DNA of 64,000 nucleotides from Salipaludibacillus neizhouensis. Lineage in GTDB: Bacteria; Bacillota; Bacilli; Bacillales; Salisediminibacteriaceae. The DNA is taken from assembly GCF_002886185.1 (NCBI RefSeq), contig NZ_KZ614146.1:2825924-2889923 (forward strand). Direction: 5' to 3'. The notes beneath the pieces were generated by a model. That model was not told the DNA's origin and made no database searches. It saw only the letters and a list, made by a program, of their open reading frames with translations. Positions 6,480-63,441 of this stretch are shown piece after piece (position 1 is the stretch's first letter; the number at the start of each line of letters is the position of its first letter). Both the position numbers and the translations under genes were made by a program.

Positions 6480-6513
6480 AATTTAAAGAATTTAAAATGC
6501 TTAGTTTTAGAGA

Positions 6514-6542
6514 ATAAAAAACGGCTATGCCGTTTTTCTTAT
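6514..6542 (-). repeat. Repeat A head only, acting as bcp terminator
   Basis: On the minus strand the bcp stop codon (6543-6545) is directly followed by ATAAGAAAAACGGCATAGCC and a GTTTTTTAT tail. This is the head of repeat A (end ATAAGAA plus hairpin ACGGC-ATA-GCCGT) without the rest of the element. Stem plus T run make it a good rho-independent terminator. Confidence 0.8.
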
Positions 6543-7511: not shown

Positions 7512-7646
7512 TTAATCACCTCAACACTATTTTATGAAAGTATGGGAGTAATTAGGACAGGTTTTGCTTTATAAAGATGAAGCTTTCTCATTGTTCATGG
7601 TACAATCATCTTTGTTAAAACGTTGGATATTAGGAGGTTCTCTTTC

Positions 7647-8942
7647 ATGGGATTCGAAAAGTCAGAACAATTTTATAAAGAAGCAAAGGATGTTATTTTA
7701 GGTGGGGTAAACAGCCCATCTCGTTCCTTTAAAGGTATAGGCGGAGGAACACCTGTTTTTATGAAAAAAGCAAAAGGACCTTATTTTTGGGACGAAGATG
7801 ATAATAAATATATTGATTACTTAGCAGCCTATGGGCCAATCATTACTGGGCACGCGCATTCTCATATTACGAAAGCGATACAAGCTGCCGCAGAAGACGG
7901 AGTTCTTTACGGTACACCGACAACTCACGAAAACAAATTTGCTACGATGCTTCGTGATGCTATTCCATCTTTAGAAAGGGTACGCTTTGTCAATTCTGGC
8001 ACGGAAGCAGTGATGACAACGATCCGAGTAGCTCGAGCCTACACTGGTAGAGATAAAATCATTAAATTCGCTGGATGCTATCACGGTCATTCTGACTTAG
8101 TACTTGTTGCTGCGGGGTCTGGACCCTCCACTTTAGGAAACCCTGATTCAGCTGGTGTTCCAAAAAGTATTGCTCAAGAGGTCATTACGGTTCCTTTTAA
8201 TGATGTGGAAGCTTTTCGAGAAGCGATCAATCATTGGGGAACGGAAGTTGCTGGAGTTTTAGTAGAACCAATTGTAGGTAACTTTGGGATTGTTGAACCT
8301 GAAGCAGGATTTTTAGAGGCTATAAATGAGATTACCCATAAAGCCGGTGCGCTTGTGATCTATGATGAAGTGATTACTGCGTTCAGATTCGGCTATGGTG
8401 GCGCCCAAAACTTATTGCAGGTTGAACCCGATTTAACCGCACTAGGTAAAATTATCGGCGGCGGACTTCCAATCGGAGCATACGGGGGCAAGCGTGATAT
8501 TATGGAGCAAATTTCACCCTTAGGTCCTGCTTATCAAGCGGGAACAATGGCGGGAAACCCTGCATCCATTCGCGCAGGGATTGCCTGCCTTGAATTATTA
8601 AAAGAACCAAATGTATATAAAACAATGGATCAGTTAGGGGAACAATTAGAGGCTGGCATCCATAAAGCAGCACAAGCTTACAACATTCCAATCACCATTA
8701 ATCGTCTCATGGGTGCACTCACTGTTTATTTTGATGTCGAACACGTTAGTAACTACGAACATGCTGAAAACAGCAACGGAGAAATGTTTGCATATTTTTT
8801 CAAGCAGATGCTAAAACGCGGTATTAACTTGGCTCCATCAAAGTATGAAGCGTGGTTTTTGACAACGGAACATTCAGAAGCAGACATAGAAAAGACCATC
8901 GAAACGGTAGAAGCTGTATTCTCCAACTGGGATTTTGCATAG
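7647..8942 (+). CDS. gsaB: Glutamate-1-semialdehyde 2,1-aminomutase
   Basis: A PLP enzyme that converts glutamate-1-semialdehyde to 5-aminolevulinate, the C5-route heme precursor. The ATG at 7647 has AGGAGG just upstream, which gives 431 residues (B. subtilis GsaB is about 429). An in-frame TTG at 7623 lies before the ribosome site and is not used. Seen motifs: [20 protein letters not shown] (PLP phosphate region), [15 protein letters not shown] (the Asp that contacts the pyridine ring) and [16 protein letters not shown] with the Schiff-base lysine. Bacillus usually has a second copy, hemL, in the hem operon; this position is that of gsaB. A repeat A copy starts 4 bp after the stop. Confidence 0.95.
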
Positions 8943-8946
8943 TGTT

Positions 8947-9077
8947 ATAAGAAAAACGGCATAGCCGTCTTTTGTTAAATACAGCGTCAGCTTCCGCCGC
9001 CATCATTTAAGTATCAAGGGTGGGTTTCCCTTGATACTTGCGGCGTGAAGGTAGCTGCTAATTTTATAAATTCTTAT
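8947..9077 (+). repeat. Repeat A, copy A1 (131 bp)
   Basis: Complete short form. Ends ATAAGAA / TTCTTAT; head hairpin ACGGC-ATA-GCCGT then CTTTT; long stem CAGC..CTTC.CGCCGC / GCGGCG.GAAG..GCTG; one inner hairpin TATCAAGGG / CCCTTGATA. It begins right after the gsaB stop in sense orientation. Confidence 0.9.
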
Positions 9078-9084
9078 CTTTTGA

Positions 9085-9120
9085 AATAAAGAAGTGGCTA
9101 TAGCCACTTCTTTATTTCTT
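9085..9120 (+). terminator. Perfect-palindrome terminator
   Basis: The 32-bp perfect palindrome at 9085-9116 has half site AATAAAGAAGTGGCTA. It is A-rich before and T-rich after the core, so it can act on both strands. It backs up the repeat A1 head hairpin after gsaB. Confidence 0.8.
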
Positions 9121-14066: not shown

Positions 14067-14222
14067 CTAAGAAAAATGGCAGAGCCGTCTTTTATTAAAT
14101 ACAGCGTCAGCTTCCGCCGCCGAGTAGCCCCTACGAAGTGCGTGTAGGTGCTACTCGAAAGGGGGTGGGTTTTCCCTTGATACGTGCGGCGTGAAGGTAG
14201 CTGCTAATTTATAAATTCTTAT
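14067..14222 (+). repeat. Repeat A, copy A2 (156 bp)
   Basis: Long form with both inner hairpins: GAGTAGC.CCTAC / GTAGGTGCTACTC and AAGGG / CCCTT. The head hairpin (TGGC / GCCG) is slightly degraded. Ends are CTAAGAA / TTCTTAT. It lies between the gltB-like gene and ygaE, ending about 60 bp before the ygaE start. Confidence 0.85.
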
Positions 14223-14284
14223 CTTAGAACAAAATCTGCCGACCTTTATCATTAGCATTGTTTTCGAAAGGAACTGGAATAATT

Positions 14285-17688: not shown

Positions 17689-17844
17689 ATAAGAAAAACG
17701 CGTAGCGTCTTTTATTATAAACAGCGTGATCTTTCGCCACCCCGAGTAGCACCTACGTAACTGAGTGTAGGTGCTACTCGAAATGAAGGGTGAGTTTCCC
17801 TTGATACTTGCGGCGAAAAGAGCTGTCATCTTATACTTTCTTAC
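17689..17844 (+). repeat. Repeat A, copy A3 (156 bp)
   Basis: Long form. The head hairpin is ACGC-GTA-GCGT instead of ACGGC/GCCGT, a paired change. The long stem reads ACAGC..ATCTTTCGCC / GGCGAAAAGAGCTGT. Inner hairpins are GAGTAGCACCTAC / GTAGGTGCTACTC and AAGGG / CCCTT. It lies between ntdP and the ABC gene, opposite in orientation to both, with its edge about 9 bp from the ABC ribosome site. Confidence 0.9.
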
Positions 17845-17856
17845 CTTGTAAAGCAA

Positions 17857-18552: not shown

Positions 18553-18711
18553 AGAAGAAAAACGGCTTAGCCGTCTTTTATTAAATACAGCGTCAGCTTC
18601 CACCGCCCCGAGTAGCACCTACGTAATGGGTGAAGGTGCTACTCGAAAGGAGGGTGGGTTTCCCTTGATACGTGCGGTGTGAAGGTAGCTGCCCATTTTA
18701 TAAATTATTAT
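18553..18711 (+). repeat. Repeat A, copy A4 (159 bp)
   Basis: Long form. The stem has CACCGC / GCGGTG where A1 has CGCCGC / GCGGCG, a compensated base pair. Inner hairpins are GAGTAGCACCTAC / AGGTGCTACTC and AAGGG / CCCTT. Ends are AGAAGAA / TTATTAT. Confidence 0.88.
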
Positions 18712-18737
18712 CTCTCAAAAAACGTCCTGTGGGATCT

Positions 18738-27767: not shown

Positions 27768-27770
27768 CAG

Positions 27771-27928
27771 ATAAGAATGTATAAGTTGACAGCTATCTTT
27801 ACGCCACGCGTGCCAAGGGAAACCCACATCCCTTAAGCGTAGCACCTACACGCAATACGTAGGTGCTACGCGGGGGTGGCTAAAAGATCACGCTGTATTT
27901 AATAAAAGACGCTACGCGTTTTTCTTTT
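27771..27928 (-). repeat. Repeat A, copy A5 (158 bp, minus strand)
   Basis: Long form in the minus direction, starting 1 bp after the yfhH stop (head first). Head hairpin ACGC-GTA-GCGT; one inner hairpin is GCGTAGCACCTAC / GTAGGTGCTACGC, where other copies have GAGTAGC / GCTACTC (paired change); AAGGG / CCCTT is kept. Ends ATAAGAA on the plus-strand left edge. Confidence 0.9.
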
Positions 27929-27929
27929 G

Positions 27930-30734: not shown

Positions 30735-30860
30735 ATAAGAAAAAAGGCATAGCCGTCTTTTATTAAATACAGCGTTATCTTTCGCCACCCCGAGTAGCAC
30801 CTTTGTATTACATGTAGGTGCTAGTGTCGCGTAAAGGCAGCTGTCATCTATACTTCCTGT
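30735..30860 (+). repeat. Repeat A, copy A6 (126 bp, internal deletion)
   Basis: Head, long stem and the GAGTAGCACC / GGTGCTA hairpin are present, but the AAGGG/CCCTT hairpin is missing. The outer stem ACAGC..ATCTTTCGCC / GGCAGCTGT is still recognisable. Confidence 0.8.
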
Positions 30861-31057
30861 TAAAAAAGTACTCTTTTTTTTCTAATCATTTAAGCAGATC
30901 TACTTCGCTTATTCAAAGAAAAAAATTCAAGGCTCTAGTAACTTAAATGTTATTTTTCACTGCTCAGAAAAAAAATTTCCTTCTAACCCTACACAAATCA
31001 TGGAAAAATAGGTATGATGGAAAGAGAATTGTAATAAAGGAGAGCAATTTTACAGTG

Positions 31058-33235: not shown

Positions 33236-33367
33236 CTAAGAAAAACGGCATAGCCGTCTTTTATTAAATAAAGCGTCAGCTTCCACCGCCATCTTTTAAG
33301 TATCAAGGGTGTGTTTTCCCTTGATACGTGCGGTGTGAAGGTAACTGCCAATTTTATAAGTTCTTAT
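33236..33367 (+). repeat. Repeat A, copy A7 (132 bp)
   Basis: Short form like A1. Long stem CTTCCACCGC / GCGGTGTGAAG, compensated relative to A1; inner hairpin TATCAAGGG / CCCTTGATA. Ends CTAAGAA / TTCTTAT. It lies between the lipoprotein gene and the chemoreceptor gene. Confidence 0.9.
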
Positions 33368-33420
33368 CTTTGAACAAGAAACACGTCACACATTTGTCAC
33401 ATATCCCACAATACAAAAGA

Positions 33421-39167: not shown

Positions 39168-39533
39168 GTGTCCATAGCTACAGATATTGTTTCGCTAAAA
39201 ATCATGTCAGAGGTTTACAAAAAACGAGGTCTTGAAGACTTGTTGAAAATGACTTGCGAATACTTAGAAGACGAAGTTCCTTATATTGATTGGGTCGGTG
39301 TCTACTTTTTCGAGAGAAATGACGAATTGAAATTAATGGCTGCCTCTAATTTAGAAAACGACTTAACTTGGACTTCTAACGGAGAACTAAAATTCCCTTT
39401 AAAAAACTCTAACAATGAAGCAAAAGGCATTATGATCGTCAGAAGTAAAGAAGCCATTGCATTTGATGTCACTGACGTATCAACATTAGAAGCTATCGCC
39501 CAATCACTAGGCGAATTAAGCATGGCTAACTAA
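39168..39533 (+). CDS. Small GAF-domain protein
   Basis: A 121-residue protein that is a single GAF-like domain: YIDWVGVYFFERNDELKLMA in the first half and GIMIVRSKEAIAFDVTDVS, then IAQSLGEL, near the end. The pattern recalls the free methionine-R-sulfoxide reductase group, but I do not see that enzyme's set of cysteines (one Cys only), so it is probably not that enzyme. The GTG start follows ATAGGAGAG. The stop codon TAA is itself part of the end of repeat A8. Confidence 0.78.
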   Translation: MSIATDIVSLKIMSEVYKKRGLEDLLKMTCEYLEDEVPYIDWVGVYFFERNDELKLMAASNLENDLTWTSNGELKFPLKNSNNEAKGIMIVRSKEAIAFDVTDVSTLEAIAQSLGELSMAN

Positions 39534-39660
39534 GAAAAACGGCAGAGCCGTCTTTTCTTAATACAGCGTGATCTTTAAAGCCACCATCATTTAAGCATCA
39601 AGGGCGAACTTCCCTTGATGCTTGTGGCGTAAAGATAGCTGTCAACTTATAAATTCTTAT
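39530..39660 (+). repeat. Repeat A, copy A8 (131 bp)
   Basis: Short form overlapping the GAF gene stop codon. Stem ATCTTTA..GCCAC / GTGGCGTAAAGAT; inner hairpin GCATCAAGGG / CCCTTGATGC where A10 has GTATC / GATAC, a compensated pair. Ends CTAAGAA / TTCTTAT. Confidence 0.92.
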
Positions 39661-39663
39661 TTT

Positions 39664-39712
39664 GTAAGAAAAACGGCATAGCCGTCTTTTATTAAAAGTA
39701 CAGCGCGATCTA
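39664..39712 (+). repeat. Repeat A, copy A9 (head and first stem arm only)
   Basis: It starts 3 bp after A8: GTAAGAAAAACGGCATAGCC, GTCTTTTATT, then AGTACAGCGCGATCT, ending at the pdaA stop codon. On the minus strand the same hairpin reads ACGGC-TAT-GCCGT then TTTTTCTTAC, so it can terminate pdaA. Confidence 0.85.
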
Positions 39713-40534
39713 GTTTCCTTTATCCTTGTCTTTATTAAAAGGTACCTGATCTCTAAAACTCACTTCATTCAAGCTTTTGAACGTATATCCTTCTTCTTTT
39801 AAATCATCGATTACCCGCGAAAGTGCCCCAGCGTTATCACTTGAGACTGAATGTAGAAGTAATACGGACCCCGGATGAATTCTGCTCATGATTTTATCAT
39901 AGGCGTAGTCCGCACCTTTCTGATTCCCTGTTTCCCAATCCACATAAGCGAATGACCAAAATACATTTGTATATCCCATCTCCTGAGTTTTAGCTAGCGT
40001 CCATTCACTAAATGTCCCTCTAGGCGGTCTTAAATAGATCATATCTTCCTGGCCAGTAATCTCCTTGTAAAAATCTTTAATATAATTAAGTTCTCTTTCC
40101 AACCGTTCCTCCGAAATACTCGGTAAACTAGGGTGGTGGTTCGAATGATTACCAACAATATGCCCCTCATCAACCATGCGATTAATTAACTCTGGCTCTT
40201 CGTTCATATAATGTCCTGTAACAAAAAATGCAGCTGGAACCTCTTTTTCTTTTAAAATATCCAAAATATCAGATGTATAGCCATTCTCATATCCATTATC
40301 AAAGGTGATAAATAGTTCCTTTTGTGTGGTATCACCTAGGTAAAATCCGCCATATTTTTCTAGCAGTTCCTGAAAATAAGGTTCTGTAGAGGCAGGTTCG
40401 TTATTTTTACTAGGATTGAAATTCCAATGGTACTCTTTTTTGCTAAGTTCCTCAGCAAAAACCTCGATGTTATTCATCGGCTGTAATGCAAATAAAACTC
40501 CAACAATTAAAATAAACAGTATTTTTTTCCCCAT
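39710..40534 (-). CDS. pdaA: Polysaccharide deacetylase, PdaA type
   Basis: A 274-residue exported enzyme related to the spore-cortex muramic-acid deacetylase PdaA. A signal peptide (about 1-28, ending near VFAEE) is followed by a NodB domain: ITFDNGYENGYTSDILDIL (first catalytic Asp pair), FFVTGHY, GNHSNHHPS (metal His pair), LRPPRGTFSEWT and LLLHSVS. The ATG at 40534 has a weak AAAGTGGG site; a TTG at 40540 is too close to it. PdaA in B. subtilis makes muramic delta-lactam needed for germination. Confidence 0.9.
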   Translation of the reverse strand: MGKKILFILIVGVLFALQPMNNIEVFAEELSKKEYHWNFNPSKNNEPASTEPYFQELLEKYGGFYLGDTTQKELFITFDNGYENGYTSDILDILKEKEVPAAFFVTGHYMNEEPELINRMVDEGHIVGNHSNHHPSLPSISEERLERELNYIKDFYKEITGQEDMIYLRPPRGTFSEWTLAKTQEMGYTNVFWSFAYVDWETGNQKGADYAYDKIMSRIHPGSVLLLHSVSSDNAGALSRVIDDLKEEGYTFKSLNEVSFRDQVPFNKDKDKGN

Positions 40535-40616
40535 AAACAATACCCACTTTCACCAGCTTTTTCTTTATGTTTCTCTATTTTTAAATTTTCATGCATGGCA
40601 AAAGAGGAGTTTATTT

Positions 40617-53871: not shown

Positions 53872-54001
53872 ATAAGTAAAACGCAAAGCGTCTTTTATTA
53901 TATACAGCGTGATCTCTAAAGCCACCATCATTTAAGTATCAAGGGCGAACTTCCCTTGATACTTGTGGCGTAAAGATAGCTGTCATTTTATACTTTCTTA
54001 T
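53872..54001 (+). repeat. Repeat A, copy A10 (130 bp)
   Basis: Short form. Head hairpin ACGC-AAA-GCGT. Stem ATCTCTA..GCCAC / GTGGCGTAAAGAT; inner hairpin AAGTATCAAGGG / CCCTTGATACTT, 12 bp. Ends ATAAGTA / TTCTTAT. It lies between divergent osmC and MFS genes; nothing else is seen in this 340-bp gap. Confidence 0.92.
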
Positions 54002-54083
54002 CTAACAAAAAGAGACTAAAATGTAATTTGGGTAACAAGTAACTTTTTCAAATATTAACTATGTAACAAAGGGGGACAACATC

Positions 54084-57107: not shown

Positions 57108-57269
57108 TGAAGAAAAACGGCAGAGCCGTCTTTTATTAAAATACAGCCTGTTCTTTCGCAACCCCCGAGTAGCACCTCTCAATAGCGTGTAGGTGCTACT
57201 CGAAGGAAGCCTGGCTTCCCTTTACGCTTGTGGCGGCTAAAGTTAGCTGTCAACTTATAAATCCTTGTA
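57108..57269 (+). repeat. Repeat A, copy A11 (162 bp)
   Basis: Long form directly after the DUF2207 stop. Head ACGGC-AGA-GCCGT; inner hairpins GAGTAGCACCT / AGGTGCTACTC and GGAAGCCT / GGCTTCC, the latter replacing AAGGG/CCCTT by a different but still pairing sequence. The tail is diverged (TCCTTGT). Confidence 0.85.
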
Positions 57270-62162: not shown

Positions 62163-63380
62163 ATGTTAATTAGAAGATTAAAAGCGTCTGAGACACAAAC
62201 TAGTCTCCAAATGTCAGAGTTTGCTTTTCAATTTGAATTGAACGAAAAAGAACGGTTGCAGCAATTAGAGGATGATCAACCGGAACAAACCTGGGTTATA
62301 GAAATGGAAAATGAAATTGTCTCTAAAGCTACAGTCCTTCCGCTTCACGTCTACTTCAACGGAAAAGTTGTCCCTATGGGTGGAGTTTCTGGTGTTGTCA
62401 CATGGCCAGAGCATCGGCGAGGCGGGTATGTAAAGAAGTTATTAAGCCACTCCTTAAATGAAATGAGAGAACAAGGTCAAGTACTTTCATTTCTCTATCC
62501 ATTTTCCATTCCCTTTTATAGAAAGTTTGGTTGGGAGCTTTTTGCTGATACAGAAATATTAACTTTAGAAAAGCACCAACTTCCTAAACGGGAGACATAT
62601 GAAGGAACGATCCGAAGACTGACAAAAGATGATCCATTAATCGTTGATGAGGTTTATCAAGCTTGGGCAAAGAAATATGCAGGAACGATAGTCCGTGACA
62701 GTGAGTGGTGGAAAAAATCTGTTTTTAAAAGAAAGAAGGGAACAATTAGTGCTTACTTTAACGCTCAAAATGAAAAAACTGGTTATCTAATTTACGAAGT
62801 GAAAAATAGAACGATGACCGTTCATGAAATTATCTGGTTAACCCCTGATGCTCGTCGTGCTTTATTACATTTTATCTCAAATCACGACTCCATGATTGAC
62901 AAGGCAGTGATTAAAACAGTCGCCCACGATCGTCTTCCTTTTCTTTTAACTGATCCGCAGGTTAAACGGGAAGTTTCGTCTTACTTTATGGCAAGAATCG
63001 TAGACGTAAAGGCTTTTTTATCACTCTATCCGTTCGAATTTAATCGTGACGATAAACCTTTGATATTACATATAACCGATGAATTTTGTTCTTGGAACAG
63101 TGGCATTTATATTTTGTCGAAATCCACCGATGATAACATTGATAATGAGGTAAAATTCTTTGGTGATGATACATCGAATTCAGGTTCAGGTGCGACATGT
63201 TCACATTCTCCTAAGAAAGGAATTCATTTAACTGTACAACATTTAACAGCTATTCTATTCTGTACACAAACTCCGCAAACCTTAGTAGAAGAAGAATTCA
63301 TTCAAGGAGATCAACAATCTATTAAAGTTTTGGAGTCGGCACTCCCCACTTTAAAACCTTTTATCTATGATTTTTTCTAA
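62163..63380 (+). CDS. Eis-like GNAT N-acetyltransferase
   Basis: A 405-residue protein with the three-part Eis layout: an N-terminal GNAT domain (acetyl-CoA loop EHRRGGYVKKLLSHSL, about 83-98), a second GNAT-like domain (about 150-280), and an SCP2-like C-terminal domain (about 290-405) ending in aromatic residues (YDFF), where the chain end takes part in catalysis in Eis. Substrates in known members are aminoglycosides or lysines; here unknown. AAAGGAGG precedes the ATG. The stop overlaps a repeat A head. Confidence 0.88.
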   Translation: MLIRRLKASETQTSLQMSEFAFQFELNEKERLQQLEDDQPEQTWVIEMENEIVSKATVLPLHVYFNGKVVPMGGVSGVVTWPEHRRGGYVKKLLSHSLNEMREQGQVLSFLYPFSIPFYRKFGWELFADTEILTLEKHQLPKRETYEGTIRRLTKDDPLIVDEVYQAWAKKYAGTIVRDSEWWKKSVFKRKKGTISAYFNAQNEKTGYLIYEVKNRTMTVHEIIWLTPDARRALLHFISNHDSMIDKAVIKTVAHDRLPFLLTDPQVKREVSSYFMARIVDVKAFLSLYPFEFNRDDKPLILHITDEFCSWNSGIYILSKSTDDNIDNEVKFFGDDTSNSGSGATCSHSPKKGIHLTVQHLTAILFCTQTPQTLVEEEFIQGDQQSIKVLESALPTLKPFIYDFF

Positions 63381-63441
63381 GAAAAACAGCATAGCCTTCT
63401 TTTATCAAATACATTGTGATTCGAGCACCTCTGTTTGAAGT
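63377..63441 (+). repeat. Chimeric repeat: A head joined to end of C
   Basis: CTAAGAAAAACAGCATAGCC, then TTCTTTTATCAAATACATTG, is an A head and stem start. It runs straight into GATTCGAGCACCTCTGTTTGAAG, the last bases of a C module. It overlaps the stop codon of the Eis-like gene. Confidence 0.7.

Follow-up and report, generated by a model that had tools for sequence, protein, structure and literature searches.

The window analysed here is the whole stretch of 64,000 nucleotides from Salipaludibacillus neizhouensis, whose genome (G000) comprises 5.5 Mb in 11 contigs. A short-class copy of a dispersed repeat, termed repeat A or element A, is found at positions 8948..9083 on the minus strand. 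Its natural 5′ end is near 9083 (AGATAAGAATTTATAA) and its 3′ end is at 8948 (TTTTTCTTA). On the natural strand, the element starts with AGATAAGAATTTATAA; a long stem follows, interrupted by an asymmetric bulge and enclosing an inner hairpin, and the element finishes with a terminator-like hairpin followed by TTTTTCTTA. The long stem of this copy, with the inner hairpin AAGTATCAAGGG/CCCTTGATACTT, covers 8982..9057, and the 3′ hairpin with its TTTTTCTTA tail covers 8948..8969, both on the minus strand. A palindromic terminator-like sequence at 9084..9117 is directly upstream of the copy in natural orientation, and this palindrome also stands behind a plus-strand open reading frame (7623-8942).

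The strand on which the original prediction described the element is the reverse of the natural orientation, and it runs against the prevailing gene direction as judged by genes and GC skew; this holds in both arms of contig C1 and in the sampled parts of contig C2. What was described as a head hairpin is indeed a hairpin, but it is not a head: it forms the 3′ end and resembles an intrinsic terminator.

Copies and length classes

A seed profile gives 13 matches in the window, at the 13 places where the repeat had been claimed, and these represent 10 near-complete copies and three 3′-end pieces. Long-class copies are at 14068..14224, 17690..17846, 18554..18713, 30736..30863 (with an internal loss) and 57110..57266 on the minus strand; the last is a profile match that is absent among the matches of covariance model R1 at E 1e-10. 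A further long-class copy, at 27769..27929 on the plus strand, has an exceptional orientation and lies behind a strong hairpin and T-tract. Besides the copy at 8948..9083, short-class copies are at 33237..33369, 39531..39662 and 53873..54003, all on the minus strand. The 3′-end piece at 39665..39711 (minus strand) abuts the stop codon of an open reading frame at 39710-40540, and the copy at 39531..39662 is directly behind the hairpin and T-tract of this piece. Another 3′-end piece is at 63378..63429 (minus strand), and the 3′ hairpin alone is found at 6512..6541 (plus strand). A 22-base core of the repeat has eight matches at three or fewer mismatches and none in 100 shuffles.

A covariance-model search had been proposed with the original prediction. 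R1 gives at least 150 matches in G000 and finds relatives in other genomes as well. Together with 25 further long-class copies on C1, the G000 total is at least 175 copies. The copies are unevenly spread; the region C1:1-100000 (L031-L035) has no profile match, compared with ten near-complete copies in the 64-kb window.

The two length classes proposed earlier are real. Long-class copies carry an extra hairpin whose arms, GTAGCACCTAC/GTAGGTGCTAC, are those of a separate GTAG-type REP; the short class lacks this REP-armed hairpin. In 904 kb, 24 such hairpins are inside element A and 13 outside. The separate REP has the same arms in the other order; it accounts for 10 hairpins in the 904 kb, all outside element A, and five of these 10 form a 91-bp tandem array next to a RAYT gene near C2:737 kb. 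Three hairpins in the element's own arm order also stand outside element A. RAYT-linked REPs of the GTAG superfamily are intergenic palindromes that share these arms with the long-class hairpin, but they are single hairpins of 20-40 bp, unlike repeat A (PMC3733652, available text).

Locus L170 (3755-4200, corresponding to G000 C2:736.7-737.2 kb) has a tandem array of five units, each of 91 bp and with a GTAG-tagged REP hairpin, next to a RAYT-like gene of about 202 aa. Locus L066 (5714-6043 and flanks) has a RAYT-like gene of 267 aa, with GGGGGGGCTGCCCCCCC and GGGGTCTGACCCC palindromes near it.

Fold and pairing

The copy at 8948..9083 folds more stably than expected either way: the RNA fold on the strand first described has z = -6.7, and the single-stranded DNA fold on the other strand has z = -7.2. 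In most single-stranded DNA folds the 5′ end goes unpaired into the long stem, and the 3′ end has a near-terminal palindrome.

An alignment of 68 copies (A3) shows 19 of 36 pairs doubly changed and 91.8% of cells paired, values reached in none of 500 shuffles; this alignment was fitted to the structure and hence leans towards it. The compensated pairing that had been predicted is real, but it represents few events on the tree of the G000 copies. Against a tree-aware null of 20 simulated alignments, none of the 36 pairs reaches E < 0.05 when set against all 8911 column pairs. Were the comparison restricted to the 36 proposed pairs, simple arithmetic indicates that four would pass (54-201, 50-205, 59-196 and 79-191). 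The scripts for the tree null, terminators and open reading frames were our own and are simple. RNAalifold finds five pairs in the mixed-class alignment, and this low number is due to misalignment of the two length classes.

The helices differ in how well they are kept. The 3′ hairpin is the best paired, with 98.6% of cells in the 68 copies. The short inverted ends ATAAGAA/TTCTTAT, also part of the original prediction, are present over 6-7 bp but are the weakest of the five helices, with 82% of cells paired. Departures from pairing sum to 56 A.C and 53 G.U, and because the two are about equal, neither strand is marked as a folded RNA. Such equality fits free decay of single copies together with compensation in source copies.

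Target sites and orientation

Full copies of repeat A are commonly found behind T-tracts. Six or more T residues occur in the eight nucleotides upstream of 43 of 59 full copies, compared with 527 of 5000 random positions. In 23 of these 43 cases the T-tract itself follows a hairpin with a folding energy below -8 kcal/mol, a feature of 6.6% of 1500 random T-tracts (p = 4e-10). A strictly defined terminator is present within 25 nt upstream in 23 of 66 copies, at the other end in 0 of 66 and at random positions in 14 of 2000. By eye, six of eight copies in G023, a genome of the same family, are directly behind a terminator. Tandem copies occur too, e.g. at 39531-39711 of the window and at C1:849218-849484, as is expected because the element itself ends in a terminator-like hairpin.

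At C1:2922312, element A splits the 3′ arm of a terminator. Joined, the flanks form a stem of 20 pairs interrupted by a single bulge, at -25.2 kcal/mol; apart they give -6.5 and 0.0 kcal/mol; the left border here was set by us at AGAGAT. The 5′ border of the element is generally more variable than the 3′ border. No direct repeat at any fixed offset is present in the flanks of 53 copies, and for flank repeats in general, permutations were as high as the observed value in 39 of 200 cases (inverted) and 97 of 200 cases (direct).

Broken copies mostly keep the 3′ end. Half-model matches in a sampled 0.86 Mb show 30 lone 3′ ends, and lone 5′ ends number 2 of 52. Seven of the 30 in fact extend as far 5′ as full copies do, and among the remaining 23, which include a copy (L058 10507) that was counted as 5′-broken yet has its 5′ end by eye, six have a T-tract at the border. 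Since the corresponding figure for full copies is 43 of 59, most pieces seem to have been broken after insertion, yet some stand right behind terminators, so that the pieces speak clearly for neither side. The far more frequent retention of the 3′ end needs another cause, e.g. selection. L058 10507 and L069 14520 consist of little beyond the two ends of the element.

Two small 3′-end pieces (L053 6814 and L055 2422) are by eye directly behind terminator hairpins and are candidate short or truncated insertions. A different and longer repeat (..CGGAAAGCGAGCGG..AACAAAATA) occurs at L036 3555, L038 13049, L070 1034 and L063 10558, each time with the small 3′ hairpin of element A directly after it.

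Orientation follows replication. With a boundary at 1.9 Mb, 105 of 119 copies on C1 are in the leading orientation, i.e. the natural strand of element A is the lagging-strand template, versus 296 of 405 sampled open reading frames (p = 7e-5); the other 14 copies have the other orientation. In G018, a second genome of the family, 50 of 52 listed copies (of at least 84 matched) are consistent with two fitted boundaries; GC skew agrees with these in all of 13 stretches sampled, and gene direction in 12 of the 13. The upstream open reading frame is co-directed with the copy in 47 of 59 cases. Among the 12 copies where it is not, the replichore is known for 11, and 10 of these 11 keep the leading orientation. 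Copies without a T-tract are also in the leading orientation (16 of 16, the C2 and C3 boundaries being provisional). An explanation of the strand bias by gene orientation alone was considered and rejected on these counts; because 10 of 11 copies with opposed open reading frames still follow replication, the bias is not borrowed from genes.

Relatives, mechanism and alternatives

Repeat A has no R1 match in seven other genomes of the genus when the best 96 candidates per genome are scored; in the one protein compared, genus mates are 60-69% identical. With the same scoring, six of 35 genomes of the family have matches, G000 included. There are at least 84 matches in G018 (of 96 candidates scored), eight in G023, two in G020 and one each in G029 and G008, the G008 match being weak (E 2e-4). 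A scan of 397 genomes, among which G018 did not show up, with the best eight candidates scored in each, gives one match of 54 bits in another family, in G084; since only the best candidates per genome were scored, absence from distant genomes is weak evidence. Single copies from G018, G023 (two) and G084 have the same fold plan with largely different stems. At the least, G018 and G023 in the family and G084 outside it have diverged elements of this kind. The 3′ hairpin of one G023 copy is a 22-bp stem. A G020 copy has a clear 3′ hairpin, with the main stem in the centroid fold only. G018 has at least three shortened copies (L183, L185 and L187) without the 3′ hairpin, where the main stem goes straight into TTTTTCTTA.

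Plasmid and phage records contain no match at E 1e-5, nor does a pattern scan of viral contigs give one. Element A stays below the gathering score of every Rfam family; among the weaker matches, a few hairpin models overlap with the 3′ hairpin of the G029 and G023 elements, the best at 40.5 bits where 51.5 would be needed. The literature searched, which included few subscription journals, holds no report of repeat A or of IS200 directly behind terminators.

IS200-type elements with a similar choice of site are found within the genus. Genus mate G006 has four identical copies (L190-L193) that share 741 bp and a common orientation, end in hairpin-TTTTGATT, and by eye are all directly behind terminators. 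Among 16 Y1 loci inspected by eye, a terminator stands directly upstream of five (L108-L111 and L113, L108 being a G006 copy); none was seen at the remaining eleven, some of which are followed by a tnpB-like frame. An IS200 remnant in G000 likewise lies behind a terminator by eye. The IS200-type elements of the family, those of G006 and others, resemble repeat A in their position directly behind terminators, in having the same orientation, and in a 3′ hairpin with a short tail. They differ in coding for TnpA, in a hairpin close to the 5′ end and in their end sequences. Matching up lone 5′ ends with lone 3′ ends across the sampled 0.86 Mb, and inspecting the surroundings of Y1 genes, revealed no autonomous element with repeat A ends; the Y1 genes examined in G000, G018 and G023 have no flanking repeat A, and Y1 genes are present in genomes without repeat A too.

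EFAR repeats of enterococci lie near gene ends. They are listed among bacterial MITEs (PMC3733652, available text) and by description can be set beside repeat A. Also by description, bcr1 of the Bacillus cereus group belongs to the same class of 100-400 bp, high-copy repeats thought to be mobile, but it is reported with TTTAT repetitions (PMC6542083, available text) and repeat A has no such duplication. A closer parallel is provided by the palindrome-associated transposable elements (PATEs) of Haloquadratum. According to the available text of PMC3119063, these are also too short for a transposase, show no duplications, have a near-terminal palindrome and shortened ends-only forms, and are struck by other repeats. 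Repeat A differs from them in its short inverted ends, its terminator preference, one fold over the whole element, and the lack of a related autonomous element around the Y1 genes examined. IS608 and ISDra2 enter the lagging-strand template (available parts of PMC5371812 and PMC6006769). The nearest literature report on site choice is the over-representation of IS200 between convergent genes (PMC9208149, available text). In Halanaerobium, 10 of 22 tnpA genes are on the leading strand, i.e. there is no strand bias (PMC7290912, available text).

The best reading is that repeat A works like an IS200/PATE element, and we lean towards regarding it as a non-autonomous, non-coding element that is mobilized in single-stranded form and inserts in the lagging-strand template. 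Insertion would take place at the replication fork, directly 3′ of a T-tract that is often part of an intrinsic terminator; the orientation would be fixed and no target sequence would be duplicated. The element may represent an IS200-type (HUH Y1) element reduced to its ends, which is what a PATE is. The enzyme would be a Y1 transposase acting in trans; the 5′-end AAGAA and the TAATAAAAG before the 3′ hairpin might be guides that pair with the T-tract and with TTTTTCTTA, respectively. Its own terminator-like 3′ hairpin and TTTTTCTTA would let a copy act as the next target. Compensatory changes perhaps arose in source copies with most copies decaying neutrally, and lone 3′ ends may be kept for service as host terminators.

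Several observed features support this: insertion into a terminator at one locus, no duplication of fixed length, the preference for T-tracts and hairpins, an orientation that follows replication in two species, the fold shared with diverged relatives, and the IS200-type choice of site in the genus. Two features sit badly with IS200 kinship: the ends form short inverted repeats, and no hairpin lies near the 5′ end. An RNA or a single-stranded DNA intermediate had originally been suggested. That pair of options stands, and single-stranded DNA is favoured because orientation is tied to replication, there is no sign of duplication, and A.C and G.U departures are about equal.

It is rather unlikely that repeat A is a retroposon, i.e. 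a short RNA mobilized by the reverse transcriptase of a group IIC-type intron. This rival is retained because class C introns have the same site and strand, inserting just behind rho-independent terminators and in the lagging-strand template (PMC8919778, available text). G000 contains group II introns and nine RVT_1 matches, and the sharp 3′ end and variable 5′ end, the excess of 5′-broken copies and the six of 23 such pieces behind T-tracts would all suit it. However, G018 has no RVT_1 match along with its at least 84 repeat matches, and T-tracts at the border are far less common in 5′-broken than in full copies. Group IIC introns are ribozymes with a reverse transcriptase, and element A has no match to a catalytic intron domain; no intron or domain V match is present in the window or in 12 element loci, although the G000 introns do match.

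Other single-strand machinery is improbable, either a RAYT acting on the hairpins, for which the REP arms of the long class and the array beside a RAYT gene speak, or a recombinase that uses folded sites in the manner of integrons, for which growth behind a hairpin, reminiscent of attC cassettes, can be cited; the short class, without the REP-armed hairpin, argues against the RAYT. Equally doubtful, or slightly more so, is a domesticated RNA or back-up terminator under selection for host gene expression. The co-directed upstream open reading frames and the well-paired, often solitary 3′ hairpin are compatible with a terminator role, but none of the seven genus mates has a match, and orientation tracks replication where the gene does not. 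For an RNA, the equal G.U and A.C departures are unfavourable, and little RNA should reach an element that is often behind a terminator. A MITE of the DDE type with short terminal inverted repeats would account for the inverted ends, non-coding nature and high copy number; it is very improbable given the lack of a target duplication in the flanks of the 53 copies and at C1:2922312, the strong orientation bias, and ends that are paired in 82% of cells only.

Should the IS200/PATE-like reading be right, terminators would be a common docking site for two unrelated mobile DNAs, class C introns and IS200-like elements, which would reach them through DNA that is single-stranded at the fork. With an element this short (about 130 bases) and this abundant (well over a hundred copies), direct tests of single-strand transposition, guide pairing and fork coupling would come within reach. 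The reading would also account for one kind of folded intergenic repeat that can be mistaken for regulatory RNA. More tentatively, the Bacillales may harbour a superfamily, so far undescribed, of single-strand DNA elements that are steered by replication and seek out terminators. Their fold would be conserved without the sequence, a Y1-type enzyme would act in trans, and the terminator that they carry would provide the targeting, as each insertion builds the next target.

Two G000 loci, L139 and L159, contain group II introns with reverse-transcriptase frames of 474 aa, and L159 also has repeated intron pieces.
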